Below, piece after piece: positions 1 to 41,506 of a DNA stretch of 64,000 nucleotides; positions within the stretch are counted from its first letter, which is position 1, and every line of letters begins with the position of its first letter. The notes under the pieces were generated by a model. The model did not search any database and was not told where the DNA came from. It saw nothing but the letters and a program-made list of their open reading frames with translations. Location: the NCBI RefSeq assembly GCF_016859125.1, contig NZ_CP069338.1, positions 6,883,501-6,947,500 on the forward strand, in the 5' to 3' direction. The translations under genes and the position numbers were made by a program. The DNA comes from Archangium violaceum. GTDB lineage: Bacteria; Myxococcota; Myxococcia; Myxococcales; Myxococcaceae.

Positions 1-2555
1 TGCGTCTTGTTGCCCGAGAGCACCACCGGGGGCTCCACGCGCTCCAGCGCGGTGCGGCGCATGGACTCCACCGTCAGCGGGAGCTGCGTCCACAGGTACG
101 TGCCCTTGCCGAGCCTCAGCGTCTGCTCGCAGGGCGTGGGCACCGTCACCACCGGCCAGCCCTTGGCGTCGTCCAGGCGGCACTGGAGGCTCGCGCCCGG
201 CGCGGCGGAGGACAGCGTGTAGTCATTCGCGCGGGGCACCGTGAGCCGCTGCTGGATGAGGTCTCCCGCTGCGACACGGAAGAACGCCTCGCCGTCGGCG
301 GTGACGCCCTCGGCCGTCTTCACCTCACGCCGCTCGAGCAGCACGCCGCCTCGGCCCCTGCTCTGTCCCGTGGTGCTCGCGGTGAGCAGGTAGCGGCCCG
401 GCCGCAGGTAGGTGGACACGAGGCAGTTGCGCCCGCGCCCGCCGCCGTTGGCGCTGCCCACCTGCGGCACCACAGGCGTGCGGATGCTGCACGCGGTGGA
501 CAGCAGGCCCAGCGTCGTCACGTGGTAGAGGCCCTCCTTCTTGACGTCGAAGGTGAGCGAGTGCGACTGCCCGCGCTCGAAGTCGAACCAGGCGGGCTCG
601 GAGGGTTTCAGTGCGGGAAGGGGCGGGAAGGTCGGCGAGTACGCACTCAGCGGGGGCAGCGGCGGCGCGGGCGGCGCGGGCCGATGCACCAGCAGGTTGA
701 TGGACGCGTTGCCCGCATGGCTGAGCGTGAGCGTGCCGCCCGTGGACGGCAGCTGGCAGCGCCCCTCGCGCGCCTCCACCCGATTGCCGCCCAGGGTGCA
801 GGTGAAGGGCTCGCCACCGGACGAGCGCACCTCGGCGGCGCCACCCTGGGCCAGGGGCAGCTGAAGTGGGCCCGGACCGTCGAGCACCACCGGCAGGGGC
901 TCGGAGAGGGCGAGGGGGAGCGGGCGCAGGACGAGGCCGCGCATGGAGCCGCTCGTGCTCCGGTTGGCGACGATGCGGTAGGCGGCGCCCGTTTCCAGCT
1001 CCACGTCTCGCATGAGGCACGACGTGCGGGTGGGGGTATCCACCTGGGGCTCCTTGCCCTCGGGGGCCAGCGTGAGCCGCTCGATGCCCTCGGTGCCGCC
1101 GTACAGCTTCAGCTCGTACACGCCGGGCGAGGCCGTATAGGGGAGCCGGCACGTCTGCGCCTTCGGATCCGTCTCGACGAGGCGGGTGCGCCGGGCGCCA
1201 TCCACCAGGTACAGCTCGCAGCGGCCCTTCCGGTCCCCGCTGGTGGAGAAGACGTAGCGCCCGGAGCGCGTCACCCGGAACCAGACGGTGGCGGTGGCGC
1301 CGTCGTAGTTGAACGCGCGGCGGAATGGGCGCTCGGGGCCCACCTCGGGCATGTCGGCGTACGAGGTGGGGACCCAGTTCCCGCTATTCCAGCTCGAGGC
1401 CCCGGGGACCCACGTCTCCAGCATGCACCCCAGGGGCGTGCTGTCCGGGTCCAGTGGCACTTCGTGCAGGCCCACCAGGTACTCGCCGGAGGAGGGCGCG
1501 TTGAAGCGCGGCATCACCGAGCCCGCGCCGTAGCTGCCGTCCGTGAAGGTGTCATCCGTCTCCAGAGGGGCCCACTGCAACATCAGCCTCGTCCCGGGCT
1601 CGCCGCGCAGGAGGGCCACGTGACGGCCCTCGCCGCGCACCGTCGTGCCGCACTGCGGGACGAGCGCCTTGCCCTGAATCTGGCAGCCCGCCTCGGCGGA
1701 AGAGACGTTGCTCGCGCCCTCGGGGGAGAGCGGATGCACGCTCACGCGGCTGGAGGACTGGGCGTTGCCCTCGCGCGACAGGAAGAGGGCGGAGGGCCCC
1801 GGGGGCAGCTCCACGGCGGACAGGCCCCAGGGCGGGAGGGTGACGCTCAGCGAGCGGCCCGCGGGCACCGCCGGGAAGCCGTAGGCCACGGAGAGGGTGT
1901 TGTCCTCCTGGCCCTCGGTCCACTCCTTCGGGGCCGTGCCGTAGGTGGTGAGCAGGTAGGTGCCCGGGTCGAGCATGGCCTCGAGCCACCACTCATATTG
2001 GGGTTGTCCCGCGCGCGGCTGCGTGGAGGCATCCCTCACCTCGACGGGCTCCAGCCATGCGCCGTTGCGCCACAGCCGTACGTCTCCAGCGGTGCGGCCG
2101 GAGACACGCAGGGTGACGGGCTGGCGTTCGTCGAGCTGGAGCCAGAAGGAGGCCTGGTGGCGCGGGGCGAGCACCTGGCGCACGTCACGGCCCGGCTCCA
2201 GCCGCACCGGCTGGGCGTTGTCCTCCGTATAGGCCACGGCCCTGAGGTCCACCTTGCCCTGGGTGCCCTTGCCCTTCGTGTTCGAGGCCAGGCGCAGCTT
2301 GTAGGTGCCCGCGTCCAGCAGCAGGTCCAGCTCGCAGTTGGCGCTGCCCGCGGCGCCACTGCTGGCGAAGGGGCCACGCACCTGATCGACGATCTCGCAG
2401 GACGTCCCGGCCGGGGTCCGCGCGGTGATGACCACGCGCGAGGCGCGATCGAGAGTGACGAGCGTCTCCTGGTTGCCGCGCGCCGGGACGGACGCGGGCG
2501 AGATGCTGACGGCGTGCAGCACCAGGAGGGAAACCGACAGCGGTGTGAGGAACAT
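1..2555 (-). CDS. Large secreted protein with repeated jelly-roll-like domains (3' end beyond window)
   Basis: The frame is open from an ATG at 2555 down to base 1, so the C-terminus lies outside the window. At least 851 residues are visible. The first ~23 residues form a signal peptide (MFLTPLSVSLLVLHAVSIS). The rest is a run of β-rich segments with recurring phrases such as LDAGTYKLRL, LDPGTYLLTT, SGRYVFST, SPGVYELKLY and LRPGRYLLTA. Paired cysteines recur between them. This pattern resembles pre-peptidase C-terminal (PPC) type jelly-roll repeats found in secreted proteins of myxobacteria. No catalytic domain is visible in this part, and function is not known. A GAGG about 6 bases before the ATG supports the start. 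The opposite-strand 718-codon frame over the same region is an antisense shadow. Confidence 0.8.
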   Translation of the reverse strand, partial: MFLTPLSVSLLVLHAVSISPASVPARGNQETLVTLDRASRVVITARTPAGTSCEIVDQVRGPFASSGAAGSANCELDLLLDAGTYKLRLASNTKGKGTQGKVDLRAVAYTEDNAQPVRLEPGRDVRQVLAPRHQASFWLQLDERQPVTLRVSGRTAGDVRLWRNGAWLEPVEVRDASTQPRAGQPQYEWWLEAMLDPGTYLLTTYGTAPKEWTEGQEDNTLSVAYGFPAVPAGRSLSVTLPPWGLSAVELPPGPSALFLSREGNAQSSSRVSVHPLSPEGASNVSSAEAGCQIQGKALVPQCGTTVRGEGRHVALLRGEPGTRLMLQWAPLETDDTFTDGSYGAGSVMPRFNAPSSGEYLVGLHEVPLDPDSTPLGCMLETWVPGASSWNSGNWVPTSYADMPEVGPERPFRRAFNYDGATATVWFRVTRSGRYVFSTSGDRKGRCELYLVDGARRTRLVETDPKAQTCRLPYTASPGVYELKLYGGTEGIERLTLAPEGKEPQVDTPTRTSCLMRDVELETGAAYRIVANRSTSGSMRGLVLRPLPLALSEPLPVVLDGPGPLQLPLAQGGAAEVRSSGGEPFTCTLGGNRVEAREGRCQLPSTGGTLTLSHAGNASINLLVHRPAPPAPPLPPLSAYSPTFPPLPALKPSEPAWFDFERGQSHSLTFDVKKEGLYHVTTLGLLSTACSIRTPVVPQVGSANGGGRGRNCLVSTYLRPGRYLLTASTTGQSRGRGGVLLERREVKTAEGVTADGEAFFRVAAGDLIQQRLTVPRANDYTLSSAAPGASLQCRLDDAKGWPVVTVPTPCEQTLRLGKGTYLWTQLPLTVESMRRTALERVEPPVVLSGNKT

Positions 2556-2904
2556 GAAGGCCTCGGAGAGAGGCGCCGCGCGGGGATGGGCGCGGCCAGG
2601 CGATTTTCCATAGCAGCAATCGTCAGGCCACCCCAATGCGGCCCCGGTAGGACGCGGAGTGCGCCAGTAGGACGATGAGTGCGGTCGTGGGGACGCGCCG
2701 TCGTGGCCCGTTGCCCGCGTCGTTCCGCCAGACCCTCGGTGTCCCAATCACTCCTGCCTGCTCGCCGGGGGGCGGGGAGGACGGGCGCGAGCTCCTTCAA
2801 GAGGTGGGCGGGGACCTCCGCCAGCGTTTCCCGGCCAGGGCTCGGACTTTCTGGTCCGGCGGCAGGCGTTTGGAGTGCGCAGCTTGCTTGCGGAGGATGT
2901 TGCG
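2556..2904. other. Intergenic, divergent promoter region
   Basis: This ~350-base gap separates the divergent secreted protein and the HAD-like gene, so it must hold both promoters. No convincing promoter, repeat or small gene could be picked out. The short frames here lack ribosome-binding sites and coding-type codon use. Confidence 0.4.
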
Positions 2905-3576
2905 TTGCCCAAGGCGATTGTCTTCGAGGTGGATGGAACGCTGGTGGACACCAACGTGTTGCGCGCGCGCGCGTGGCAGGAAGCGCTGGCGCGTTACGGG
3001 CGTCAGGTGCGGCTGCCTCGAGTGCTCGCGCAGATGGCCCGCAACGGAGACCAGTTCCTGTCCGTATTCCTCCCCGAGGACGAATACGAGCGTTACGCCG
3101 AGGAGCTGGCGAGTTTCCACCGCGCCCTCTTCCACGAGCAGTACCTCTCCCAGGTGCGGCCCTTCACCGGAGCCACCGAGCTGCTCCAGCACCTGCGCGA
3201 CGAGGGGTGGAAGATCGCCCTGGCCTCCACCGCGGACCCCGACGAGCTGGAGCACTACATCGAGCTGCTCGGGGCGGAGGGGCTCATCGACGCGAGCACC
3301 ACGGACGCGGAGGTGGACCACACCCGGCTCAGCGAGGAGATTCCCGCGGAGGCCATCCGCCTCCTGGGCCTCGATGGGACGGACGACACGCTGACGATCT
3401 CCGGCCTGCCCTACGACGTCGAGGGCTCCGTGCGCCTGGGGATGAGGAGCATCGGGCTGGTGTGCGGCGGCTTCTCGGACGAGGACCTGCGATCCGCGGG
3501 CGCGCTCGCCGTGTTCGGCACACCATTGGATCTGCTCACGCGGTATTCCGAATCGCCGCTCGCCCTGGACAATTGA
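2905..3576 (+). CDS. HAD-superfamily protein with degenerate catalytic motifs (predicted pseudoenzyme)
   Basis: The 223-residue protein has the length and fold signature of the phosphoglycolate-phosphatase/β-phosphoglucomutase branch: a motif-I strand, an α-helical cap, then AST (motif II) and a late PYDVEGS segment (motif IV). The key residues are altered. Motif I reads FEVDGTLVDTN, so the nucleophilic Asp of FDxDGT is Glu. The motif-III Lys (normally in KPxPD) is not recognisable. Motif IV reads ISGLPYDV where GDxxxD is expected, losing the first Asp. Without the nucleophile, phosphatase or mutase chemistry is unlikely, so a binding or regulatory role is inferred. A TTG start at 2905 is chosen because GGAGG sits 8 bases upstream at 2892-2896; a GTG at 2875 would be in frame without such a site. 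Confidence 0.8.
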   Translation: MPKAIVFEVDGTLVDTNVLRARAWQEALARYGRQVRLPRVLAQMARNGDQFLSVFLPEDEYERYAEELASFHRALFHEQYLSQVRPFTGATELLQHLRDEGWKIALASTADPDELEHYIELLGAEGLIDASTTDAEVDHTRLSEEIPAEAIRLLGLDGTDDTLTISGLPYDVEGSVRLGMRSIGLVCGGFSDEDLRSAGALAVFGTPLDLLTRYSESPLALDN

Positions 3577-11732: not shown

Positions 11733-12529
11733 GCACCGGCGGCGAACAGGGGAGTGGCCTCCCGGCGCGCTGGCTCCACGTGGGCGCCGCCGTGGCGGTG
11801 ACGCTCGCGGCCACCGGGTACTTCGCGGGCATTCGCGCACCCGAGATGCCCGAGCGTCCGGCCGCGTCGGACCCGCACGCGCAACGGGCGGAGCGGGTCT
11901 CGAGCTACAGCGAGCTGCGCGAGGCGCGACGCGGGGCCAACGCGCACATGTACGAGGGCGCCATCGCCTCGTTGTCGGAGGAGGCGTTCCCCGTGAAGCC
12001 GCTGCCGGTGGCCACCTCCGAGCAGCGCGCGGAGGCCGTGGCTCGGCGCAAGACCCACCGCGCCTACGACGGGGCCCCGCCCACCATTCCGCATGAGATC
12101 GATCAGCGCGAGGTCCCCGGCTGTCTGGCCTGCCATGGGGACGGGATGAAGCTGGGCAACCGGGTGGCGCCGAGGATCAGCCATCCACCGTACCAGAGCT
12201 GCACACAGTGCCACGTGGTGGGGGAGTCGCCCCGCCCGCTGGCTCCGTACAAGGACGTTCCGGCGAATGGCTTCGTCGGGTTGGACCCGACCGGGAAGGG
12301 GGCTCGGGCCTGGCCGGGGGCTCCGCCCACGATGCCGCATCCGACGCACATGCGGAACGAGTGCTCGAGCTGCCACGGTCCCCAGGGGCTCGCCGGGCTG
12401 CGGACCTCTCACCCGGAGCGCCAGAACTGCCAGCAGTGCCATGGCTCCTCGGCGCAGCTCGACCAACGCGTCGACGCGAGCAGTGCTCCCGGCGGTTTCG
12501 CGCGGGTGGCCCGGGAGGCTCGACCGTGA
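11729..12529 (+). CDS. napB: NapB-like cytochrome with duplicated diheme unit (four hemes)
   Basis: The 266-residue precursor has an N-terminal membrane/signal segment (AAVAVTLAATGYFAG) and a linker, followed by RAYDGAPPTIPHEI with CLACH and CTQCH, which is a complete NapB unit. A second unit follows: GAPPTMPHPTHMRNECSSCH and SHPERQNCQQCH. Both units share GAPPT-x-PH, a first CxxCH, a second histidine motif and a second CxxCH. Classical NapB has only one such unit (two hemes, ~150 residues). The start overlaps the napA stop by 4 bases. It should deliver electrons to NapA; the extra hemes could lengthen the wire or replace a missing NapC-type partner. Confidence 0.86.
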   Translation: MSTGGEQGSGLPARWLHVGAAVAVTLAATGYFAGIRAPEMPERPAASDPHAQRAERVSSYSELREARRGANAHMYEGAIASLSEEAFPVKPLPVATSEQRAEAVARRKTHRAYDGAPPTIPHEIDQREVPGCLACHGDGMKLGNRVAPRISHPPYQSCTQCHVVGESPRPLAPYKDVPANGFVGLDPTGKGARAWPGAPPTMPHPTHMRNECSSCHGPQGLAGLRTSHPERQNCQQCHGSSAQLDQRVDASSAPGGFARVAREARP

Positions 12530-30624: not shown

Positions 30625-31701
30625 ATGTCCGACCCACTCCTCCCGCGCCTCGAACGGCTCCAGGCACTCGGCCGCACCCCCGAGGCGCTCGCCACCGCCG
30701 AGGCACTGGCCACGGACCTGGCCCGGCAGGGCCAGCCGCTGCGCGCCATCGCGGTGTGCAAGGTGCTCCTGCAGCTCGAGCCTGCCCATACGCGCACCCC
30801 CCAGCTGCTGGCGGAGCTCTATGCCCGGCCCGATGCCCCGGGAGCGACCACGGGAGCCGGAGCGCTGCCGCGCGTGCCTCTCTTCTCGCTGCTCCCGCGC
30901 GAGCCCTTCATGGCGCTGGTGGGCGTCCTGGAGCCGCGCGTCTTCCATCCCGGGCAGAACCTCATCGTCGAGGGTGAGCCGGGCCGCTCCTCCTTCATCC
31001 TCGTCGAGGGGCGCGTGGACGTGGTGCGCCAGGTGGAGGGCGGCGAGCGGCGCACGCTGTCCTCGTTGGGAGAGGGGGAGTTCTTCGGGGAGATCGCCCT
31101 CGTGTCCGAGAGCCCCCGGCTGGCCACCGTGGTGGCGACCGAGCCCGTGCTGGCGCTCGAGCTCCACCGGACGAAGGTGGAGCGGATCGCCTTCAAGCAC
31201 CACTCGGTGGGCGACACGGTGCAGCACTTCTACCGGGAGCGGCTGCTGGCCAACGTGTTGCGCAGCCACCCCATCTTCTCCGCGCTGGCGCCCGCGCAGC
31301 GCGAGGCGCTGTCCCACATCTTCGAGCTACGGACCGTGGAGGCCGGGCGCGTCATCATCGAGCAGGGGCAGAAGGGTGATGGCCTGTACCTGCTGCTCCA
31401 GGGCCAGTGCACGCCGCTGTTCCGCCGCCCCGACGGGCGGGAGACCGCCTTCCCCAACCTGCGGGAGGGGGATGTGTTCGGGGAGATCTCCCTGTTGCTC
31501 GGCCAGCCGGCGAGCGCCACGGTGCGCGCGGAGACGTCGTGCCACATGCTCCGGCTGGGGCGCGAGGCCTTCGAGCAGTACCTGGCCAGTCAGCCCGGAG
31601 TCCGCGCGGCGCTCATGCGGGTGGGCACGGAGCGGCTCCTGCAACTCTCCAAGGTGCTGGCGTCCGGCCGGGCCGTGCACGACGGCGATCAGCGCGTCTG
31701 A
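30625..31701 (+). CDS. Protein with two cyclic-nucleotide-binding domains
   Basis: The 358-residue protein has an N-terminal helical repeat (RLEALQ-type, residues 5-60, with a TPR-like LRAIAVCKVLLQLEPAHTRT) and two cNMP-binding β-rolls. The first contains GEGEFFGEIALVSESPRLATV, the second REGDVFGEISLLLGQPASAT. Both keep the FGE motif that contacts ribose; the conserved Arg is present in the first (ESPR) but not clearly in the second (GQPAS), so only one site may bind nucleotide. No DNA-binding domain follows. Its 3' end overlaps that of the convergent epimerase gene by 13 bases. Confidence 0.85.
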   Translation: MSDPLLPRLERLQALGRTPEALATAEALATDLARQGQPLRAIAVCKVLLQLEPAHTRTPQLLAELYARPDAPGATTGAGALPRVPLFSLLPREPFMALVGVLEPRVFHPGQNLIVEGEPGRSSFILVEGRVDVVRQVEGGERRTLSSLGEGEFFGEIALVSESPRLATVVATEPVLALELHRTKVERIAFKHHSVGDTVQHFYRERLLANVLRSHPIFSALAPAQREALSHIFELRTVEAGRVIIEQGQKGDGLYLLLQGQCTPLFRRPDGRETAFPNLREGDVFGEISLLLGQPASATVRAETSCHMLRLGREAFEQYLASQPGVRAALMRVGTERLLQLSKVLASGRAVHDGDQRV

Positions 31702-32639
31702 TTTCGGCTCTCCAGCCACTGACGGACCAGGGCGGGCACGCCCTCGCGGATGGTGGGATAGCGGAACTGGAAGCCCGTGGCGTGCAGGCGCGCGTTGGAC
31801 AGCCTCGCCTCCGCCGTCAGTGAGTCGGTGATCACCGGGCCCAGGGCCAGCGTGCACAGCCAGCGGGGAAGGAGCAGCCTGCGGTGGGTGACGCCCAGGG
31901 TCTCCGCGGCCACCCGGCTGAGGTCCGCGAAGGTCACCGGCTCGTCATCCACCACGAAGTAACGCCTGCCCACCTCTCCGTGCTCCAGCAGGTGCAGCAG
32001 GGCTCGGGCGCAGTCCTCCACGTGGATGGGGGACATCTTGCGCACGAGCGTCTCCTTCAGCCCGAAGAGGCGCCGGCCCTCCTTCAGCGGCACCAGCGCG
32101 TACTCCTCGAACCAGGAGCCCAGCCCGTACACCGAGCCGGGATAGGCCTCCACCAGGGGCAGCCCGCGTGCCAGGTACCCCGGCAGGGCCTCGATGGCGG
32201 GCGCGATGTACGGACCCCACCCCGAGGGCCTGGGCGTGCTGTCCTCCGTGACGAGCTCGTGACCCTGGTCGCCGTAGTAGCTGGTCCCGCCGACATAGAG
32301 CACGCGCTTCACGGTGCCCGGCTTCAGCGACTCCAGCAGCAGCGAGTCCATGCGCAGCCGCTGGTCCCGGTAGGCCTCGGCCCGCTTGTGCGTCACGCGG
32401 CCTCCGAAGGTGAGCGGCTGCGCCAGGTGCACCACGTGCTCACTCGCCGCCGCCTCCTCCTGCCAGGGCCCGGGGGTGAGGAGATCTCCGTGCACCACGG
32501 TGACTCCGGCGTGCTTCCACCGCTCGGCGGCCCGGGCGTTCCGGGTGAGCACCCGCACCTGGTAACCCGCCTCCAGCGCCAGGGGAATGAACCTCGCGCC
32601 GATGAACCCCGTGCCTCCCGTGACGAATAGACGCTTCAC
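31689..32639 (-). CDS. NAD(P)-dependent epimerase/dehydratase-like (atypical SDR)
   Basis: The 316-residue protein starts at a GTG with AAGGAAT about 7 bases upstream. It has a Rossmann motif (TGGTGFIG) and an NAD-proximal HGDL. The catalytic region has GTSYYGDQG, where the usual YxxxK is weak, then LVEAYPGSVYGLGSW, typical of extended SDRs acting on sugars or steroids. The substrate is unknown. The upstream gap of ~85 bases separates it from the lipoprotein gene of the metal-type cluster; the two run in the same direction but have different upstream signals. Confidence 0.82.
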   Translation of the reverse strand: MKRLFVTGGTGFIGARFIPLALEAGYQVRVLTRNARAAERWKHAGVTVVHGDLLTPGPWQEEAAASEHVVHLAQPLTFGGRVTHKRAEAYRDQRLRMDSLLLESLKPGTVKRVLYVGGTSYYGDQGHELVTEDSTPRPSGWGPYIAPAIEALPGYLARGLPLVEAYPGSVYGLGSWFEEYALVPLKEGRRLFGLKETLVRKMSPIHVEDCARALLHLLEHGEVGRRYFVVDDEPVTFADLSRVAAETLGVTHRRLLLPRWLCTLALGPVITDSLTAEARLSNARLHATGFQFRYPTIREGVPALVRQWLESRNQTR

Positions 32640-32724
32640 CGTGATTCCTTCCGCTCCCGGCTCCTCGGAGGGGGCACGGCATAGCCCACCCGCGCACAGG
32701 GCGGAAGGGTCGCACGGTGTCTCC

Positions 32725-33603
32725 TCAGTGGGCGACGGTGCAGACGCCTCCTCCATTGAGGTGCGCCTGGTCCACGACGCTCTGGGTCACGAACTCCTGC
32801 AGCGTCCGCACCGTGTAGGCGCCCGGCTCGTAGACGACCGGATTCCCCTGGTCGTCCTTCAGCTCGCCCCCGTTCCGGTCGCGCAGATCCAGGAGGTCCT
32901 GCGTGGCGAGTCCCTCGGGAGTGATGACCCCCTTCTCATCCGCCGTGGCGGCGATGGCATCGAAGCGCAGCTGCACCCCCCGGTGGGTGCCCAGCCGGTC
33001 GTAGAACATGTGCTCGGCGTGGATGGTGACCTCGGCCTGCGCCACGGAGTTCTCCGGCACGACGATGCCCATCGTCCCGTCCACGCCGTTGATGCAGTCC
33101 ACCATGTGCGCGTCCACGGGGAAGCCCATGCGGAAGGTGTAGACGCCCACGTCCTTCTTCACCGCCACCCCCTCCACCCAGTAGCTGTAGCCGCGCTCGC
33201 GCATCATCGCGAGATCCTCGGCGGAGACGTTCCCGTCCGGCAGCCTCGTGTCCTCCCGCGGCGGGCTCACCCGGAAGCCCACCCCCCAACGCCCGGCCGG
33301 CAGCCCCTTCAGCCCCGTGAGCGGCACGTCCCCCTTCTGCACGTCCACCAGCACGTGCTCGGGCGCCGTGCGCTTCTCCCCGGAAGCCGAGGTGAGGGTG
33401 AAGTCCCCCAGTGAGACCAGGTACTTCGTGAACTGTACGGACCAGCCATCCTGGAAGAGGTGGCTCGCGTAGCCTCGCTGGGTCCCGTCCCCGCCACTCA
33501 TCGTCACCCGTACTTCTCCCTCGGCCACGGGCTCGCACGCCGCTACGGCGAGCGTCATCCCCACCAGCGCCACGTACCACGTCATCCGCCATGCGCTTTT
33601 CAT
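32725..33603 (-). CDS. Secreted lipoprotein of the TonB-receptor cluster
   Basis: The 292-residue precursor has an N-terminal leader with lipobox LAVAAC. The mature part carries DGWSVQFTKYLVSLGDFTL, then several possible metal ligands (DAHMVDC, IHAEHMFYDRLGTH, CTVAH at the C-terminus). The opening strand pattern resembles secreted MbnP-type metal-binding proteins and is echoed in the 36235 gene (TGWRVELTSARMVLGPIYLF). It is divergent from the TonB-receptor gene, and the palindromic operator candidate at 33621-33633 lies 18 bases before its ATG. A role in binding the receptor's substrate is inferred. Confidence 0.7.
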   Translation of the reverse strand: MKSAWRMTWYVALVGMTLAVAACEPVAEGEVRVTMSGGDGTQRGYASHLFQDGWSVQFTKYLVSLGDFTLTSASGEKRTAPEHVLVDVQKGDVPLTGLKGLPAGRWGVGFRVSPPREDTRLPDGNVSAEDLAMMRERGYSYWVEGVAVKKDVGVYTFRMGFPVDAHMVDCINGVDGTMGIVVPENSVAQAEVTIHAEHMFYDRLGTHRGVQLRFDAIAATADEKGVITPEGLATQDLLDLRDRNGGELKDDQGNPVVYEPGAYTVRTLQEFVTQSVVDQAHLNGGGVCTVAH

Positions 33604-33620
33604 GTACCTGGGAAGTAGAT

Positions 33621-33633
33621 GCAACAGAGTTGC
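33621..33633. promoter_or_regulatory. Operator candidate A (GCAAC-AGA-GTTGC)
   Basis: A perfect 5-3-5 palindrome in the 67-base gap between the divergent lipoprotein and TonB-receptor genes. The same motif occurs in three other gaps of this cluster and nowhere else that I noticed in the window. Confidence 0.7.
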
Positions 33634-33670
33634 GAGTCAAGAGCGGGGTGGTGTATCTCCGCGGTCACCC

Positions 33671-36238
33671 ATGTGGATTTCCTGTCTGGTGCTCTGCCTC
33701 CTGGGCGCCTCGGCCGATGTGCCTGTGTCCCCTCCGGTCCCCCTGGAGGCCGCTCCCCCCGTGATGCCGACGGACGCACCCCCGCTCACCGCCCCCGCCA
33801 CGGTGCTGCTGCGCCTCACCATCGATGAGGCCGGCGAGGTGTCTCGCGTCGACGTGCGTGAGTCCGCCGGCCCCTCGTTCGACCGTGCCGCCATGGCCGC
33901 CGCCCTCCGCTGGCGCTTCCAGCCCGCCCGCCGCGGCGAGGTGCCCCTGGAGGTCCAGGTCGATGTTCCCGTGTCCTTCGTTCCTCCGGCTCCCGCGGAG
34001 GGATTGGCGTCCTCGGAGCCCTCGGCGTCACCGGAGGTAGGCCCTCACCCCGGCCCTCTCCCGGAGGGAGAGGGGGCGGATACGGGCATGAACACGGGGG
34101 CGGATACCCTCACCCCGACCCTCTCCCAGGGGGAGAGGGAGGGGCCTTCGTTTTCTACGACCGTTCGGGGTCGGGGTTATGCGCCTCCTCCCTCCGCCGT
34201 GGGCGATTTCCAGATCTCCGTGGGGCAACTCGCCGATGTGCCTCGCAACTCCGCCTCGGACCTGATGCTGCTCGCCCCCGGGGTCATGCTCGCCAACCAC
34301 GGCGGCGAGGGTCATGCCGATACCATCTTCATCCGCGGCTTCGACGCGGGCGAGGGCAAGGACGTCGAGTTCCGCCTCAATGGCGTCCCCCTCAATGAAG
34401 TGTCGCATGCCCACGGCCACGGCTACGCGGACACCTACTTCATCATCCCGGAATTGGTGCACTCGCTGCGCATCACCGAGGGGCCCTATGATCCCTCCCA
34501 GGGGGACTTCGGCGTGGCCGGCACGGTGGAGTATCAGCTCGGCCTCGAGCGCCGGGGCCTCACCGCGTCCGCCAGCTACGGCAGCTTCGCCTCACGCCGG
34601 TTGTCATTGGTGTGGGGGCCTCCAGAGTCGAGCGAGGCCACCTTCGTGGGTCTGCTGCTGCGCCAGGGGCACGGCTTCGGTCCCAACCGCGCCTACGCCA
34701 ACGCGGGCGTCATGGCCCAGGTGGAATTCCACCTGGGCGAGGAGACGCGGCTGCGCCTCTTCGGCACCAGCTACGCGTCTCGTTTCTCCTCGGCGGGCGT
34801 CGTCCGGGAGACGGACGTGGTGGACGGGCGCATGCCCTGCGCCGCCGACGCGGACTCCCAGTTCTTCTGTCTCTACGACTCCAACCAGGGCGGGGCCGGA
34901 CAGCGGCACATCCTCTCCGCCGAGTTGCAGTCGCGGCTGCGCAAGGGCGGGCGCTTCGTGCAGCAGGGCTTCGTCGTGATGCGGCAGATGCGCATCCGCG
35001 ACAACTTCACGGGTTTCCTCAATGACGTACCGCCCATCGGCGAGGACCAGCGCGGCGACAACACCGAGCAGTACTACCGCGGCACCACCGTGGGCCTGCG
35101 CGGGCGCTACACCCCGGGCTACACCCTCCTGGGTCAGCCGCAGCCGCTGGAACTGGGCTACGTGGCCCGCTTCGATGACGTGCTCACCCGCGCTCGCCGC
35201 CTGAGGGCCAACGGAGGCGCACCCTACGGCACCCTCTTCGACAACCAGGTGCGCACCACCAACCTGGGCGCCTATGCCTCGCTGCGGCTCGCTCCTCTCT
35301 CCTGGCTCACCCTGCGCGGCGGCCTGCGGCTGGACACCTTCCTCTTCGGCGTGGAGGACCAGAACCGGCCCACCTCCGACAGGCAGGGCGAGCGCATCCC
35401 CGAGGAGTCCATCGAGGCCTATGGCTTCTTCGCCAGCCCCCGTGTCACCGCCGAGGTGCGGCTGTCGCCCCAGCTCACCTGGCTCACCAGCGCGGGCCTG
35501 GGGGCGCGCTCCAGTGACGCGGCGGCGCTGTCCGATGCGGAGCTCGCTCCCTATGCCCGCGTGACGGCGGCGGAGACGGGCCTGGGGTGGCGGCTCGGCG
35601 GGGAAGGGCGGGCCCATGAGCTGGAAGTCCGGGGCGCCTTCTTCGGCACCCGCGTCTCGCAGGATCTCGTTTTCGACGAGACGGCGGGCCGCAATCAGCC
35701 CGTGGGGCCCTCGCAGCGGCTGGGGGCCTTCGCCACCGCGCGTTACACCCTCCTGCGACGGTTGGACGTGCAGGGCAGCGTCGCCTGGGCCCGCGCCACG
35801 CAGCCCACTCCGGGCGCCTCTCCCTGGAAGGTGTGGGAGGGCACCGTCATCCCCTACATCCCCCAGCTCCTTGGCCGGCTCGACGCCTCCGTGCGCGGTG
35901 ACGTCACCGTGGCCGGGCTCCCCCTGGGGTGGAACCTCGCGCTGGGGCACAGCGCCATCGGGCCCAAGCCGCTGCCGCTCGATCGCTACAGTGAACCCAT
36001 CTTCCTCTTCGACGTGGCGGCCCGGGCCCGGTGGAAGTGGATGGAGCTCGGCCTGACGGTGGAGAACCTGCTCGACGCGCGCTGGCGCGAGGCGGAGTTC
36101 AACTACGTGTCCAACTTCCGCGGTCCGGACGCGCCGGCCTCCCTGCTGGCCACGCGCCACTTCTCCGCGGGCGCCCCTCGCACCTTCCGCGGAACCCTCA
36201 CCGTCTACCTGGACTTCCAGGAGGAGCAGCAGCCATGA
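33671..36238 (+). CDS. TonB-dependent outer-membrane receptor with N-terminal TonB-like domain
   Basis: The 855-residue precursor has a signal peptide (MWISCLVLCLLGASA). A TonB C-terminal-like domain follows (about residues 42-103: RLTIDEAGEVSRVDVRESAG, ALRWRFQPARRGEVPL). Next comes a repeat-derived linker (about 124-158), a plug domain starting QLADVPRNSASDLMLLAPGV, and a 22-strand barrel. The plug is His-rich (HGGEGHADTIFIRGF, VSHAHGHGYADTYF), suggesting a metal or metal-chelate ligand. Uptake needs a TonB/ExbBD system not present here. The two REP-like copies in the linker are in frame. The next gene overlaps its stop by 4 bases. Confidence 0.88.
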   Translation: MWISCLVLCLLGASADVPVSPPVPLEAAPPVMPTDAPPLTAPATVLLRLTIDEAGEVSRVDVRESAGPSFDRAAMAAALRWRFQPARRGEVPLEVQVDVPVSFVPPAPAEGLASSEPSASPEVGPHPGPLPEGEGADTGMNTGADTLTPTLSQGEREGPSFSTTVRGRGYAPPPSAVGDFQISVGQLADVPRNSASDLMLLAPGVMLANHGGEGHADTIFIRGFDAGEGKDVEFRLNGVPLNEVSHAHGHGYADTYFIIPELVHSLRITEGPYDPSQGDFGVAGTVEYQLGLERRGLTASASYGSFASRRLSLVWGPPESSEATFVGLLLRQGHGFGPNRAYANAGVMAQVEFHLGEETRLRLFGTSYASRFSSAGVVRETDVVDGRMPCAADADSQFFCLYDSNQGGAGQRHILSAELQSRLRKGGRFVQQGFVVMRQMRIRDNFTGFLNDVPPIGEDQRGDNTEQYYRGTTVGLRGRYTPGYTLLGQPQPLELGYVARFDDVLTRARRLRANGGAPYGTLFDNQVRTTNLGAYASLRLAPLSWLTLRGGLRLDTFLFGVEDQNRPTSDRQGERIPEESIEAYGFFASPRVTAEVRLSPQLTWLTSAGLGARSSDAAALSDAELAPYARVTAAETGLGWRLGGEGRAHELEVRGAFFGTRVSQDLVFDETAGRNQPVGPSQRLGAFATARYTLLRRLDVQGSVAWARATQPTPGASPWKVWEGTVIPYIPQLLGRLDASVRGDVTVAGLPLGWNLALGHSAIGPKPLPLDRYSEPIFLFDVAARARWKWMELGLTVENLLDARWREAEFNYVSNFRGPDAPASLLATRHFSAGAPRTFRGTLTVYLDFQEEQQP
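34042..34142. repeat. Two REP-like copies (4 and 5) inside the receptor gene
   Basis: CCCTCACCCCGGCCCTCTCC (34042 on) and, ~60 bases later, CCCTCACCCCGACCCTCTCC (from 34106) are direct repeats. They are translated as PGPLPEGEGADTG and TLTPTLSQGEREG, adding a flexible linker without breaking the frame. Confidence 0.85.
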
Positions 36239-37077
36239 CGACCCCTCTTCGCCCCACGCGCCGGGCCTTCACCACGATGCTCGGCGCCGCGCTGCTCGGC
36301 GGTGGCGCCGCCTGTGGGCTGTCCGGCACCGGTGGCCGAGCCATCGTCTTCCGAATGGGCCTGCGCACCGGGCTCGCCCCCGGTGAGTCGCAACCGGGCC
36401 ACTTCACCACCGACACCGGCTGGCGCGTGGAGCTCACGTCCGCGCGCATGGTGCTCGGCCCCATCTACCTCTTCGAGAACCCCTCGCCCCTCCAGTCGCG
36501 CCCCACGGGACGGTGGTGGCGCCGCGTGGGCGAGGTGCTCGTCCCCACCGCGTACGCGCACGAGTCCTTCTTCTCCGGTGGGCAGGTGCTGGGGGAGTGG
36601 GACCGCGAGGTGGTGTTCGATCTGCTGGCGGAGGGCGGCGCGACGCGGGAGCTCGGGCGCTCGCCGGGAATCGCCGGCAGGGTCCGCTCCTTCTCGCTGT
36701 TGCTCCAGCCGCCCTCACAGGCGCTGGGCGCGGAGGCGGCGCCGCTCGAGGGCCACTCGGTGCTGCTGGAAGGGATGGCCTCGCGCGAGGGACACGGCCT
36801 CGCCTTCCGGGTCGCCCTGGACTTCCCTCCACCCGTGGAGACGCAGCGGGTGGAGTTCGTTCCCACGGAGGTGGAGCTGGAGGACGACGGTCTCTTCGTC
36901 GTGGAGCTCCAGCCCCACCGCTGGTTCGAGGGGACGCTCTTCGAGCGGCTGGAGGTGCCGACCAGCGGCGCGGCGGTGGCGGTGCCCTCGGAGAGCCAGG
37001 TGCACCGCGCGCTGCTCCTCAACGTGCGGCGGCACACCGCGTTCTCCGCCGCGTGGGAGCCGGGCACCGCTCCCTGA
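36235..37077 (+). CDS. Exported lipoprotein co-transcribed with the TonB receptor
   Basis: The 280-residue precursor starts at an ATG overlapping the receptor stop (ATGA). Its leader has both a twin-arginine-like TRRAFTTMLGAALLGG and a lipobox GGAAC, so it may be a Tat-exported lipoprotein. The mature region begins IVFRMGLRTGLAPGESQPG and includes TGWRVELTSARMVLGPIYLF and YAHESFFSGGQVLGEWDREV. The WRVELTSA..GPIYLF strand pair resembles that in the divergent lipoprotein at 32725. Function is unknown; coupling to the receptor suggests substrate capture or release in the periplasm. Confidence 0.72.
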   Translation: MTTPLRPTRRAFTTMLGAALLGGGAACGLSGTGGRAIVFRMGLRTGLAPGESQPGHFTTDTGWRVELTSARMVLGPIYLFENPSPLQSRPTGRWWRRVGEVLVPTAYAHESFFSGGQVLGEWDREVVFDLLAEGGATRELGRSPGIAGRVRSFSLLLQPPSQALGAEAAPLEGHSVLLEGMASREGHGLAFRVALDFPPPVETQRVEFVPTEVELEDDGLFVVELQPHRWFEGTLFERLEVPTSGAAVAVPSESQVHRALLLNVRRHTAFSAAWEPGTAP

Positions 37078-37088
37078 CGGCGGGCCCG

Positions 37089-38027
37089 CTACCTATCCTG
37101 GCGCTCGAGGATGAACTCGAACGTCGCGAACGAGGCCGGCCCGTAGTGGAGCGAGTAGATGATGTCTCCCGCCATGGCGCTGAAGCGGGCCTGGTGGGTG
37201 ATGCCGGCGCACGCCGGAGCGGTGGTGTGGATTTCCACCGGGACCTCCACATTGCCGATCTCGTCATGGACGCTCAGCGGTACCTCCCGATCGAAGTACA
37301 GCGTGACGTTCTCGTCGACGTCCGGCGCCGAGATGAACTCCGAGTACCCCTCATGGGTGCCGTCGCTGCCCGGGAGCGTCAGCCGGTAGCGCGTGTGGCC
37401 GATGTCCGTCGCGGGCGGGAAGGCGAACTTCGTGGCGGCGGCAGTGCGCTCCTCCGGTGTGTTGACGAGCGTATGGGTGCAGGCGTGCTCGAGGTCGCCG
37501 TCTCTTTCCGCGGTGGTGAAGTCCAGCTTGCCATCGCCCACGACGGGGGCTCCATCGATCGGCCTTCCCGCCGCGTCCAGGAGCTGGGTGAGGTCCAACG
37601 CGTAGGGCGCCTTCTCCTCCAGCGGAGGCCCGCCCTCCTCCGGCGCCGGGATGGTGACGGTCAGCGTGCGATGGTCGGAGGACCACTGGCCCGACAGGGT
37701 GCGCGGCGCGATGCTGGAATCGCTCCGGTGGGTCAGCATCACCTGTGAGTGCGAGGGATCCATGGGACCGCTGAACGTCACGGTGAGCACCTTGCGGTGG
37801 TACACGCCCGGGCGGCTCGCCGCGCCGTCGTAATACAGCTCCACGGGGTACAGGTCCGACGAGCCCTCCGCGGGCTGTGCGCTGGAGACGGACGCGCGGG
37901 GCTCTCCGGCGTCCGTGCCGGCATCCGTTCCAGCGTCCGCTCCGGGGGGCGTGGGGTCCTCGTTATCGCAAGCCATCGGAGCCAGGGCGCAGGCGGCGAA
38001 CAGGGCAATGACAGGGGAGAGGCGCAT
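37089..38027 (-). CDS. HACxH lipoprotein 1
   Basis: The 312-residue precursor has a lipobox (LAPMAC) and an Asp/Gly-rich linker (GADAGTDAGTDAGEP). An N-terminal Ig-like domain (VLTVTFSGPMDPSHSQVML) is followed by the C-terminal HACxH domain: LEHACTHTLVNTPEE (about residue 181), GYSEFISAPDVDENVTLYFD, VPVEIHTTAPACAG and ISLHYG-type final strands. The His/Cys motif and later His and Cys residues suggest metal binding. It lies 129 bases downstream of a second HACxH gene in the same direction, probably in one operon driven from operator C. Confidence 0.72.
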   Translation of the reverse strand: MRLSPVIALFAACALAPMACDNEDPTPPGADAGTDAGTDAGEPRASVSSAQPAEGSSDLYPVELYYDGAASRPGVYHRKVLTVTFSGPMDPSHSQVMLTHRSDSSIAPRTLSGQWSSDHRTLTVTIPAPEEGGPPLEEKAPYALDLTQLLDAAGRPIDGAPVVGDGKLDFTTAERDGDLEHACTHTLVNTPEERTAAATKFAFPPATDIGHTRYRLTLPGSDGTHEGYSEFISAPDVDENVTLYFDREVPLSVHDEIGNVEVPVEIHTTAPACAGITHQARFSAMAGDIIYSLHYGPASFATFEFILERQDR

Positions 38028-38156
38028 CGTTCAGGGTTCCTCGAGGGTGGCTGTTCGGCCCGGAGACGGGCCTGGGGTGGAAATGGCACCGGGGCGACCC
38101 CGGTCGGAGGCCGCCCCGGCTCGCGGGCGGGGCCCGCTGTTACGGAGAGGAGGGCA

Positions 38157-38891
38157 CTAGTTGGTCAGCGAGCCGTTGCAGTTCTCATCCACGCTGTTGC
38201 CGGTGAGCTCGGTGGCGCTCGGGTTGATGCTGGCGTTGGCGTCGTTGCAGTCGAACCGCTGGAGGATGTACCCGGCCGGCGGCACGCACGCGGTGTAGAC
38301 GGAGACGCTGCTGTTGCCGTAGGCGTCACCGTCCGCGTCCTGGTAGTAGCGGACGCGGTTGTCCTCCAGACGCTCGGGGACCACGCCCAGCAGGTTGCCC
38401 GACGCGGCCCCGAAGGTCACCTGGTAGTCGGTGGTGGTTCTGGTGAGATCGTACAGGGTCGCCGTCACCAGCGAGCAGCTGCTGGACACGGCGTGGCTGA
38501 GCGCGGGGTTGATCGTGGTCCCGGCGGAGTCCTTCACGGTGATGCTGACGTTCTGCGACCGATAGAAGGCCCAGGAGCCCGCGGCGGACGGCCTGAACTT
38601 CACCGTGCCAGCGGCGCCGGAGGGCATCGTCACGTCATAGTACTTGTGGGTGGTGCTGATGGAGGGCGTGGCGCTGGTGAGACCGCTCGTCGCCGTCACG
38701 GAGACGTGGTCCCCGCTGATGTCGTCGTGCGTGCAGGCGTGGTTGGTGATGTTGGAGCCGAGCTGCGTGCAGCCGGCCTCCAGCGTCTGCTCCTGCTCCT
38801 GCACGCCTTCCTCTCCCTCCATGGCGGGGCCGCAGGCCGCCAGCGTCAGGCCGAGGAGCGCGCTTCCGAGGGTCCTCATCGTCATCTTCAT
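38157..38891 (-). CDS. HACxH lipoprotein 2 with C-terminal putative metal-binding motif
   Basis: The 244-residue precursor has a lipobox (LTLAAC). The HACxH domain begins at about residue 50 (NHACTHDDISGDHVSVTA), followed by YYDVTMPSGAAG, GSWAFYRSQNVSITV and YQVTFG strands. The last ~60 residues (YYQDADGDAYG, FDCNDANASINPSATE, DENCNGS) match the Asp/Cys-rich putative metal-binding motif seen in MopE-type proteins. Two different metal-binding modules in one lipoprotein is notable. Operator candidate C lies ~90 bases upstream of the ATG. Confidence 0.75.
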   Translation of the reverse strand: MKMTMRTLGSALLGLTLAACGPAMEGEEGVQEQEQTLEAGCTQLGSNITNHACTHDDISGDHVSVTATSGLTSATPSISTTHKYYDVTMPSGAAGTVKFRPSAAGSWAFYRSQNVSITVKDSAGTTINPALSHAVSSSCSLVTATLYDLTRTTTDYQVTFGAASGNLLGVVPERLEDNRVRYYQDADGDAYGNSSVSVYTACVPPAGYILQRFDCNDANASINPSATELTGNSVDENCNGSLTN

Positions 38892-38980
38892 GGTGTCGAT
38901 CCCTTTCAGTGCACCGGGAGCGGCGCGGCGCCTTGCGCCTGCACCACGTGCTCCGCGGTGCTCGCAGTGATGACTCATGC

Positions 38981-38993
38981 GCAACTGAGTTGC
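38981..38993. promoter_or_regulatory. Operator candidate C (GCAAC-TGA-GTTGC)
   Basis: A perfect 5-3-5 palindrome in the 141-base gap upstream of the second HACxH lipoprotein gene, flanked by T/A-containing sequence (TCATGC before, AATAGC after). Confidence 0.7.
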
Positions 38994-39032
38994 AATAGCG
39001 TCCTCGTCACTTCGAGTGACGTGCTGGGCGCT

Positions 39033-39683
39033 TCACAGATGCTCGATGACGAGGCCGAGCTCGGGGAGCGGGGTGGGGCCCAGGGTGACGGTGTATTGCA
39101 CCTGATCCGTGAGCTGGTAGCCCACCATGTGCACCAGGCCGGTGCAGATGTCCTCGGGCACGGGGGCGGTGGCGACCGGCTCCACCAGGAGCTCCCCCTC
39201 ATGGATGGTGATGGGAACGCTGGCATCGCTCAGGTAGGCGACGAAGTTCCCGGTGGCGTAGCCCTTGAAGTTGAAGGTGCCCACGTACTGCCCGTCCTCC
39301 GGACGGAGCTTCACCGTGTAGTAGGTGTGGAAGGCATCCACGCGCGGTTTGCGCTCCACCGACGCGGTCACCGTGGCGAAGGGGCCGTTGGTGACGTGCC
39401 AGCAGGCGTGCTCGCCGTTGTCGCCGAAGCTGAATTCCTCGTCCGGGTCGTAGTTGGGGTCCGGAATGCACGACAGGCCTTCCACGGACGCCATGTAGCC
39501 GCGATCACAGTGGCACCAGTCTCCCGTGGGCTCGCGGTGGATGTGGCCGTTGGGCGCGCAGGGATCCGTCTGCTCCTGCGGCGGCTCGCCGGGAGGTCCG
39601 GGCTCCGGCTCTGGATCGGTTCCGCAGGCGGCGAGCGCCGCCGAACAGGCGGCCAGGACGAGGACTCGGAGGGATGGACGCAT
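39033..39683 (-). CDS. HACxH lipoprotein 3
   Basis: The 216-residue precursor has a lipobox (AALAAC) and a Pro/Glu-rich linker. A small Cys/His-rich module follows (CAPNGHIHREPTGDWCHCD, EGF-like), then the HACxH domain from about residue 88 (EHACWHVTNGPFATVTAS, TYYTVKLRPEDG, NFVAYLSDASVPITIHEG, DICTGLVHMVGYQL, YTVTLG). The domain layout is the same as in the other three family members. Operator candidate B lies ~35 bases upstream of the ATG. Confidence 0.75.
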   Translation of the reverse strand: MRPSLRVLVLAACSAALAACGTDPEPEPGPPGEPPQEQTDPCAPNGHIHREPTGDWCHCDRGYMASVEGLSCIPDPNYDPDEEFSFGDNGEHACWHVTNGPFATVTASVERKPRVDAFHTYYTVKLRPEDGQYVGTFNFKGYATGNFVAYLSDASVPITIHEGELLVEPVATAPVPEDICTGLVHMVGYQLTDQVQYTVTLGPTPLPELGLVIEHL

Positions 39684-39716
39684 GCGCGGCTTCCTACTCG
39701 TTATGTGGTGGTTGAT

Positions 39717-39729
39717 GCAACAGAGATGC
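39717..39729. promoter_or_regulatory. Operator candidate B (GCAAC-AGA-GATGC)
   Basis: The motif is one mismatch from a perfect palindrome, within TTGATGCAACAGAGATGCAA, in the gap between two HACxH lipoprotein genes. Confidence 0.6.
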
Positions 39730-39801
39730 AAATGAACGGACGGGGCCCACGGGCGGCATGGCCCGTGGACCCCGCGTCAGGCTGGAAGGCCCGGGGATGG
39801 A

Positions 39802-40380
39802 CTACTCGTGGTGGTGGCCCGCCTCCTCGACGAGGAGGGTGAACTGGGCGTTCGCCGCCGTGATGGACTCGAACTCGAGGCGGTAGTCCTGGCCCGCCTC
39901 GAGGTCCGCGATGATGGCGGTGCGCAGGTCGCTGCAGATCTCCGAGGGGATGCTGTAGCGGCACTCACGCGTGATCTCGACGTCGCCCTGGAAGATGCGC
40001 AGGCCACGCACGCGGGACAGCAGGAAGGCGTACTCGCCCGACTCCTCCGCGGTGAACATCACCGCGCCACCATAGCCACAGCCGTTGGTCTTGGCCGGCA
40101 GGGTGACGACGTAGGCGGTGTGCGGAAGGCTGACGTCCACGAAGGACACGGTGCCCAGCGGGCTGGCCGTCACGCTCTGGAAGGGGCCGTACACCGCGTG
40201 GCTGCAGGCGTGCTCGGCCACCTCCTCCAGCTCCGTGGTGTCGGTGCAGGCGGCGAGCAGCTCCTGCTGCTGGGTCTCCAGCGCGGCCTCCTGGGACTCG
40301 GCCTCCGTGGTGCCGCAGCCGGTGAGCATCATCGCCACGCCAGCGGCGAGCAGGCTCTTCTTGAACAGATCCTTCATCAT
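39802..40380 (-). CDS. HACxH lipoprotein 4 (His-tailed)
   Basis: The 192-residue precursor has a lipobox (MMLTGC), a Glu/Gln-rich linker, then the HACxH domain from about residue 55 (EHACSHAVYGPFQSVTAS, TAYVVTLPAKTNG, YAFLLSRVRGLRIFQG, EICSDLRTAIIADLEAG, YRLEFESI). It ends in GHHHE, a possible extra metal site. Start ATG 40380 has AGGAG 7 bases upstream. The 49-base gap to the upstream gene suggests an operon beginning at 41119 under operator D. Confidence 0.78.
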   Translation of the reverse strand: MMKDLFKKSLLAAGVAMMLTGCGTTEAESQEAALETQQQELLAACTDTTELEEVAEHACSHAVYGPFQSVTASPLGTVSFVDVSLPHTAYVVTLPAKTNGCGYGGAVMFTAEESGEYAFLLSRVRGLRIFQGDVEITRECRYSIPSEICSDLRTAIIADLEAGQDYRLEFESITAANAQFTLLVEEAGHHHE

Positions 40381-40429
40381 GATGTGACTCCTGTTTGTTG
40401 GGGGGGACTGCTTGGGTGAAGGGGGGGCC

Positions 40430-41119
40430 TCAGGGCCGCTCCGGAGACAGCACGGCCCAGGGCACGACGACCTCGCCCGAGGGCAGGTGCTCGGGGGGCA
40501 GCTGCATGTGGGGACCGACGTCGCCGAGCTTCAGGCCGGGGACGCGTCGCCGGGCCTCTTCGTAGGAGGCCGCGTCGGGAAACGTGACGTGCGTCACACA
40601 GCCAGCGGCGTAGCAATCCGTCGGCCCGGCGCGCACGGGGAGGACCTCCGCCTCGAGGGTGGTCCGCCACGTCTCCAGCGCCGTGCGCGCCTGGTGCGTC
40701 CACGCCTCCTGGCTCACCCCGGAGGCCTGGAACTGGGCTAGCACCGCGTCACGGCGCTCGAGAGGGGTGGCGTAATCGCCGCGCAGCGCACGGACGATCT
40801 CGAGGCGTTGCTCCGGCAGCTTCCGGCGCGCCCGGGGAGACAGGGGCCAGGGAGCTGCCGCCGTGCCCGGCATGGGGAGGGGCTCGCCAGCGGGGGGCGG
40901 GGAGACCACCGCGAGCGGCTCACGGGGGAGGGGAGCGGTGGGCGGAGGGGCGCGGGGCGCGGCGGGCGCGGGCGGATCAGCCCTCGGAGCGGACTCGGCC
41001 AGCTCGGCCAGCGGGGGCCCGGCGTCGGGCGACTCCAGCGGGCGGTCCAGCCACAGCGCCAACAGGAGCGCCAGCACCAGACCTCCGACACCCATGCTCC
41101 ATACGATCCGCGCCACCAC
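40430..41119 (-). CDS. Membrane-anchored protein with Pro-rich linker, first gene of the operon
   Basis: The 229-residue protein has one N-terminal helix (VGGLVLALLLALWLD), a long Ala/Pro-rich linker (residues ~30-90) and a C-terminal domain with a CYAAGC pair (THVTFPDAASYEEARRRV follows). It looks like an inner-membrane protein with a periplasmic domain and spacer, reminiscent of TonB-type layout, but the C-terminal domain is not recognisably TonB. Start GTG 41119 (or GTG 41116) follows GGAGG closely. Operator candidate D lies ~55 bases upstream. Confidence 0.65.
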   Translation of the reverse strand: MVARIVWSMGVGGLVLALLLALWLDRPLESPDAGPPLAELAESAPRADPPAPAAPRAPPPTAPLPREPLAVVSPPPAGEPLPMPGTAAAPWPLSPRARRKLPEQRLEIVRALRGDYATPLERRDAVLAQFQASGVSQEAWTHQARTALETWRTTLEAEVLPVRAGPTDCYAAGCVTHVTFPDAASYEEARRRVPGLKLGDVGPHMQLPPEHLPSGEVVVPWAVLSPERP

Positions 41120-41506
41120 GTGCCTCCAGCGTTCCGTTCAACGCGGAGGTACTGTGCCACTGAGGTTCAAACGCAATCAAGTTGCATTTGAATAGACGTG
41201 GCGATTTGCCCTGTGCGGCGCTACTGGTCCTGAGTGCCGGGTCCAGTCCGCCGGTGGCACCTTCAGCATCCCGCGCACGTCCGCGAGCGGGTCTCTCCGC
41301 TGGCGGAAGCCGTCGAGGATCTCATCCGTCCGTTTGTTGACGCTCATGGGGGCGGCACTCCAGTCGGGCTGTCCGATTCGCGAGGTTCCGCCTCCACCAG
41401 CCGAGCAGCCGAGCGATGGGTGTTCTTCACGCGGGAGGCACTGCCACTCCGTCCAGAGGAGCCCCAGCTTTGTTGGAGGCTTTCATCCCGAGGGGGGAGG
41501 TTCATC
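41120..41506. other. Divergent intergenic region
   Basis: The gap of 387 bases contains operator D near its left end. The remaining ~310 bases before the PerM-type gene have an open frame in phase with that gene but no ribosome site before the chosen GTG and no clear family resemblance, so it is left as leader. Confidence 0.5.
41166..41192. promoter_or_regulatory. Operator candidate D (extended palindrome)
   Basis: TTCAAA-C-GCAAT-CAA-GTTGC-A-TTTGAA: the 13-base core (41173-41185) has one mismatch to GCAAC-N3-GTTGC, and TTCAAA/TTTGAA arms extend the symmetry to 27 bases. It lies between the operon starting at 41119 and the PerM-type gene. Confidence 0.65.

Follow-up and report, generated by a model that had tools for sequence, protein, structure and literature searches.

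Which regulator, and which metal, governs an envelope gene cluster whose intergenic regions share one short palindrome? The question is raised by a stretch of 64,000 nucleotides from Archangium violaceum (contig NZ_CP069338.1, positions 6,883,501 to 6,947,500; hereafter the window), in which genes for a TonB-dependent receptor, several lipoproteins and a membrane protein are accompanied by four copies of GCAAC-N3-GTTGC (Table 1). A first-pass annotation had ascribed the set to one shared regulator of the Fur/Zur superfamily, had inferred a metal from the receptor and the lipoproteins, and had called the regulon undescribed. In this study, the palindromes, their conservation and the other genes that carry them were investigated by sequence comparison and structure modelling. 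We consider it highly probable that the palindrome is a Zur operator, and that zinc lack switches on a zinc-scavenging envelope cluster together with ZigA and the ribosomal proteins L33 and L28. DNA binding, zinc dependence and the direction of control are what we infer from sequence.

Table 1 Predicted regulatory sites and genes of the envelope cluster (coordinates of the window)
Feature	Coordinates	Strand	Basis or remark
MbnP-fold lipoprotein P0008	32725..33603	-	Alignment of 22 sequences and structure model
Putative promoter of MbnP-like gene	33612..33640	-	TTGACT -35, 17-base spacer containing the operator, weak -10 TACTTC; by eye
Predicted Zur operator A	33620..33634	.	Gap between divergent MbnP-like lipoprotein and TonB-receptor genes; TGCAACAGAGTTGCG
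TonB-dependent receptor P0001	33671..36238	+	Pfam Plug, TonB_dep_Rec_b-barrel and TonB_C above cut-offs; His-rich plug
Putative secreted lipoprotein P0002 (TatLP)	36235..37077	+	Twin-arginine-like signal by eye; 4-base overlap with receptor gene
HACTH lipoprotein P0003, 312 aa (LP312)	37089..38027	-	Presumably cotranscribed with P0004
HACTH lipoprotein P0004	38157..38891	-	C-terminal MopE-type motif (Pfam Cu-binding_MopE)
Predicted Zur operator B	38980..38994	.	Upstream of MopE-motif lipoprotein/LP312 pair; CGCAACTGAGTTGCA
HACWH lipoprotein P0005, 216 aa	39033..39683	-	Sequence motif
Candidate Zur operator C	39716..39730	.	Upstream of 216-aa lipoprotein; TGCAACAGAGATGCA; weakly conserved
HACSH lipoprotein P0006	39802..40380	-	His-rich tail; model resembles collagen-binding/PPC-type beta sandwiches
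Putative membrane protein P0007, 229 aa	40430..41119	-	First gene of presumed operon with P0006
Predicted Zur operator D	41166..41192	.	Upstream of membrane-protein/HACSH lipoprotein pair; AT-rich arms; TTCAAACGCAATCAAGTTGCATTTGAA

The sequence scan of the window placed perfect copies of the palindrome at 33621-33633 and 38981-38993 and copies with one mismatch at 39717-39729 and 41173-41185, as had been annotated, and the last copy is indeed the core of a 27-base palindrome (operator D). The operator consensus is TGCAAC-N3-GTTGCA with AT-rich flanks. Further 13-mer matches with one mismatch, at 12156 and 27058, each sit within a long open reading frame, so the earlier remark that the palindrome was not seen in other gaps of the window holds. 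The window thus contains six matches with at most one mismatch against a shuffle mean of 2.04, and six were reached in 1 of 100 shuffles.

Across the 12.68-Mb genome, the bare 13-mer occurs at 14 places compared with 6 for the reversed pattern, and four of the 14 are repeated copies of one stretch (L003/L004, L005/L006). A bare 13-mer scan is too unspecific when taken alone, and its approximately twofold enrichment would suit the view that the palindromes arose by chance or are copies of a repeat element devoid of regulatory meaning. That view is scarcely credible, however, given that the sites keep their position across genera with scrambled controls near zero, and given their local density: the 15-mer TGCAACNNNGTTGCA with at most one mismatch was found at 17 places genome-wide versus 4 for its control, three of them inside the cluster, and, at the control frequency for the genome, three places within 7.6 kb correspond to P ~2e-9, a rough value for a region picked post hoc. 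The frequency of the motif, singled out for checking in the first-pass annotation, exceeds the control level for the 15-mer and, only about twofold, for the bare 13-mer. A chance origin was rejected on positional conservation, the controls of the upstream scans and local density.

Conservation of the sites was assessed in 60 stretches around matches of the receptor or of P0006, in which the 260 bases upstream of each gene were searched, gene starts being extrapolated from tblastn; the counts exclude genes that were missing, whose match began only late in the query, or that lay too close to the end of a stretch. Of 53 orthologous receptor gaps, 51 contain site A with at most one mismatch, 27 of them in perfect form, and none of 11 scrambled control palindromes exceeded 5 of 53. 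Site B, before the MopE-motif lipoprotein, was found within the same limit in 33 of the 53 orthologous regions, with a perfect copy in 13, a few rows of this class being misassigned (L127 repeats a class-D site). For site D, before the membrane-protein/HACSH pair, the count was 28 of 42 (4 perfect), with the HACSH lipoprotein substituted where the membrane protein was missing, and many relatives read AAATGCAACTTGATTGCATTT. The sites that ought to precede orthologous clusters, another check named beforehand, are accordingly present for A, B and D, and the third site is poorly conserved.

The receptor gap also shows how the operator lies relative to the promoter. TTGA stands at the same place in all 51 class-A sites with at most one mismatch, and TTGAC in 44 of the 51. 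Operator A occupies the 17-base spacer behind this TTGA box, followed by a weak -10, and a position within the -35/-10 spacer is as expected for a repressor site. The genes concerned are widespread: of the 96 family genomes searched, 54 (the A. violaceum genome among them) contain a receptor match of no less than 72% identity, a Myxococcus xanthus strain being one of the named carriers, and 56 contain a match of lipoprotein P0006 at no less than 44% identity.

The other genes found behind the box point to the nature of the regulator. In the A. violaceum genome, the box stands before the L33-ZigA gene pair (L167; TGCAATGAAGTTGCA) and also before a gene for L28 (L014; CGCAACACAGTTGCG). The ZigA of this pair passes the NCBIfam cut-off of the ZigA zinc metallochaperone GTPase as a full-length protein (NF038288; 637 vs 600 bits) and is a co-target of the box outside the window cluster. 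The box-associated L33 has no cysteine and the box-associated L28 has one, both being without cysteine pairs; cysteine-poor forms of L33 and L28 can replace zinc-binding ones. Perfect boxes in other genomes precede COG0523 genes (L172-L175) and, in G006, zur itself (L177). Strand-aware upstream scans recovered the 15-mer within two mismatches in 18 of 30 ZigA-like (COG0523) loci (500 bases scanned; best 30 of 41 matches) and in 16 of 30 zur loci (350 bases scanned; best 30 of 88 matches), with controls at 0-1 of 30 in both. By coordinates, 11 of the 36 genomes in which L28 was matched have its gene no more than 2 kb away from a COG0523 or zur gene. Ribosomal proteins, COG0523 proteins and TonB receptors are all tabulated as Zur targets in a review (PMC6103462).

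The envelope cluster and zur are, moreover, neighbours in several genomes. In G031, G032 and G033, zur adjoins the receptor cluster by coordinates, and the G031 locus (L082) also holds L28, L33 and perfect boxes. In G079 (L108), a COG0523 gene lies directly beyond the receptor operon with a one-mismatch site in between. A Polyangiaceae metagenome contig (L272) combines receptor, TatLP, MbnP-like gene, zur, a COG0523/ZigA-like gene and L33 with sites, one of them perfect; a Labilithrix locus (L273) has the same gene set minus L33 and only two-mismatch sites. A further locus (L275) has six sites with at most one mismatch around HACxH-like lipoproteins and the receptor. Among the 19 distant receptor loci (identity up to 53%), receptor, TatLP and MbnP-like gene are kept together in 13.

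Because of these box-carrying genes and the synteny with zur, the regulator could be narrowed to Zur, and hence the metal to zinc. The first-pass idea of a single Fur/Zur-superfamily regulator is thereby strongly supported; its metal, first read from the receptor and lipoproteins, becomes zinc through the box-carrying genes and zur synteny, although this too is read from sequence. The box regulator is very probably Zur. The own genome holds only two FUR-domain matches. The Zur candidate (L016) passes the cut-off of the FUR superfamily PF01475 (51.4 vs 23.1 bits), and 87 of the 96 family genomes contain a match to the zur orthologue with E 1e-25 or lower.

The existence of a second FUR-domain protein, the Fur/PerR-like L015, means that the palindrome might instead be bound by this protein, with the cluster answering to iron or peroxide. 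Of the two proteins, L015 agrees better with Fur models (125 bits, short of the cut-off of 200), and the best NCBIfam match of receptor P0001 is the siderophore receptor MxcH. That match is far under its cut-off, however (NF038079; 74 vs 925 bits), the remaining box-carrying genes are of the zinc-deficiency type, and the box precedes orthologues of zur, the gene of the other FUR protein, while the 500 bases before L015, examined in the own genome only, contain no 15-mer with fewer than four mismatches. Control by L015 is thus very improbable, and it was rejected on the box upstream of zur orthologues and its absence before L015 in the own genome. A new, unnamed class of regulator was likewise rejected, on the known Desulfovibrio Zur box and the nature of the target genes.

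Several observations weigh against the assignment to Zur. The Zur candidate misses the cut-off of the NCBIfam Zur equivalog (NF008646; 28.3 vs 167 bits) and is therefore called Zur by context and not by that model, and its best solved-structure matches are named Fur. Upstream of zur, the own genome carries only a two-mismatch site, and 14 of the 30 zur loci (best 30 of 88 matches) are without a site within two mismatches. Only 3 of 30 L28 genes (best 30 of 36 matches) have a site directly before them. The 3.8 kb surrounding the sole ZnuA-like gene, whose operon may begin further upstream, yielded no site with three mismatches or fewer. Within the cluster, site C, before the 216-aa lipoprotein, shows at most one mismatch in only 4 of 50 orthologous regions and at most two in 19 of 50, with many best matches of this class falling in coding sequence. 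Of the distant receptor loci, 14 of 19 lack a site within one mismatch and 5 have one. Set against the conserved sites A, B and D, the co-targets and the synteny, these points leave the cluster very probably a real, conserved Zur-type regulon, forming a zinc-scavenging system common to many myxobacteria.

The motif itself is not new: a matching Zur box had been predicted as early as 2004. In Desulfovibrio vulgaris and D. desulfuricans, ATGCAACNNNGTTGCAT is the Zur box that Rodionov et al. (2004; PMC545781) predicted upstream of znuABC-zur, and it has the same 13-base core as the palindrome described here. The term undescribed was therefore wrong as far as the motif is concerned. The targets differ: the Desulfovibrio box precedes znuABC-zur, whereas here it precedes genes for a TonB-fused receptor, envelope lipoproteins, ZigA, L33/L28 and Zur, with none in the 3.8 kb around the ZnuA-like gene; the comparison concerns the box and not the Zur proteins. 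At the level of the regulon, a paper on Caulobacter crescentus (PMC4176598) likewise describes Zur-repressed TonB receptors for zinc scavenging (ZnuK, ZnuL and ZnuM), with Zur sites of another type (e.g. GATGTTATATCATAACAAT); this likeness concerns regulons and not receptor sequences. No myxobacterial Zur regulon appeared by title or abstract start in the one open-access library searched, which does not prove that none has been described. As far as searched, the extension of the Desulfovibrio-predicted box to myxobacteria appears to be new, as does the proposed zinc assignment of the TonB-fused receptor, the MbnP-fold lipoprotein and the four H-x-C-x-H lipoproteins. A metal and a regulator would thereby be assigned to an envelope cluster that had been unannotated.

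The proposed mechanism is as follows. While zinc is sufficient, transcription would be blocked by a Zur dimer bound to the operator, which in the receptor gap lies within the -35/-10 spacer. Under zinc shortage, the repressor would leave its operator, and the TonB-fused receptor, the MbnP-fold and Tat-type lipoproteins and the four H-x-C-x-H lipoproteins would be derepressed; ZigA and the cysteine-poor L33/L28 proteins, encoded elsewhere, would be produced under the same conditions. The receptor would serve to import zinc, or a complex of zinc, through the outer membrane, and the lipoproteins of the cluster would bind zinc in the envelope.

The encoded proteins were characterized by profiles, alignments and models. 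Receptor P0001 has a TonB C-terminal domain at its N terminus, followed by plug and barrel, and E243, H248 and H250 of the plug do not vary among 9 aligned sequences. No solved structure was matched by the receptor profile at E 1e-5. It is likely a receptor for zinc or a zinc complex. P0002 neighbours the receptor in distant loci too. That HACxH lipoproteins stand behind the sites, as first noticed, was borne out and extended, four proteins (P0003-P0006) carrying the motif. These are paralogues: in an alignment of 17 sequences (the four kinds from four genomes plus one solo paralogue), C59, H61, H87 and C149 in P0006 numbering are invariant and H57 is nearly so, and the family with this His/Cys pattern can be named as candidate zinc binders. 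P0006 has no Pfam match at E up to 0.01, and P0007 has no Pfam or NCBIfam match at that limit. In the P0006 model (predicted local distance difference test, pLDDT, 80.4), the H-x-C-x-H lies in helix 49-64 ahead of a beta sandwich. Residues ~60-187 gave Z scores of 10.4 to 9.2 with collagen-binding domains (PDB 5iku, 1nqd; best root-mean-square deviation 2.7 over 107 aligned residues) and 7.6 with a PPC domain (5sv5), at 13% identity or less. The shared fold shows no function, and P0006 adds the H-x-C-x-H helix relative to these domains. A C59-C149 disulphide and a three-histidine zinc site are conceivable in P0006, and metal binding by the cluster lipoproteins is presumed.

In the MbnP-like lipoprotein P0008, H195, H198, H281, C170 and C288 are invariant across 22 aligned sequences. 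Its model (pLDDT 92.8) matched MbnP of Methylosinus trichosporium (PDB 7l6g) best, with Z 9.9, a root-mean-square deviation of 3.8 over 191 aligned residues and 13% identity, the next entry reaching Z 7.6. The six best Foldseek matches were MbnP chains, but with low TM-scores of 0.29-0.33. As modelled, P0008 has an MbnP-like fold. MbnP binds copper. The operators might be those of Zur while the envelope proteins handle another metal, such as copper, or a metallophore complex, with induction by zinc lack only part of a wider metal response. The MbnP-like fold would fit this, as would the motif of P0004 that Pfam names Cu-binding_MopE. The envelope cluster is, however, syntenic with zur, ZigA-like and cysteine-poor ribosomal genes, and P0008 is unmatched by the Pfam MbnP family (PF20243) at E up to 1, with 1 of its 22 alignment members matching (E 3e-4); handling of another metal is unlikely. 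MbnP occurs near methanobactin genes, and a 2013 paper (PMC3621798) states that no data then tied MbnP to copper. No di-haem peroxidase of the MbnH kind was matched among the nine window proteins scanned against Pfam and NCBIfam. On the side of zinc scavenging, a more specific proposal can be advanced tentatively: a surface machine of new build, in which zinc, perhaps released from prey, is captured by the four paralogous lipoproteins, whose H-x-C-x-H ... H ... C site sits on a beta sandwich, and by a zinc-using MbnP-fold lipoprotein, and is passed to the receptor with its own TonB domain.

Some minor observations concern the same genes and the same box. The linker of P0001 between TonB domain and plug (window 34040-34150) contains, by eye, two in-frame copies of a CCCTCTCCC...GGGAGAGGG-type repeat. 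The solo HACxH paralogue lies behind a gene for a His-rich membrane protein (L137, own genome 11468676; L138, L140, L141). The 13-mer is perfect there in three relatives, and the own genome (L137) has only a three-mismatch match before the neighbour gene. Over the solo-paralogue loci, the 13-mer with at most one mismatch was found in 11 of 20; eight of these were counted before the neighbouring membrane-protein gene (five read gene by gene), and three located elsewhere were excluded.

Beyond the cluster, a box with one mismatch lies ~22-29 bases upstream of a DUF418/YeiB-like membrane protein in the own genome (L157 around 1478-1515; 1118962), and the same arrangement with a perfect box recurs in G006 (L185 around 1471-1515); the protein scores 113 bits, below the YeiB cut-off of 325, and its gene is likely a further Zur target. 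The sequence CGCAACATAGTTGCA (L012/L168 1501-1515; own genome 10009820) precedes the gene of an apparent FAD/NAD-binding protein, a possible Zur target. In G006, a gene for GTP cyclohydrolase II (RibA) stands behind a perfect box (L184 640-1515). On its other side, the L28 box is flanked by a divergent gene (L014 around 1500-3013) whose cytochrome-like CxxCH product we take to resemble di-haem oxidoreductases. Finally, an epimerase-family gene (window 31689-32756) shares 32 bases with the 3' end of the MbnP-like gene, which lies on the same strand, and the two may be cotranscribed.

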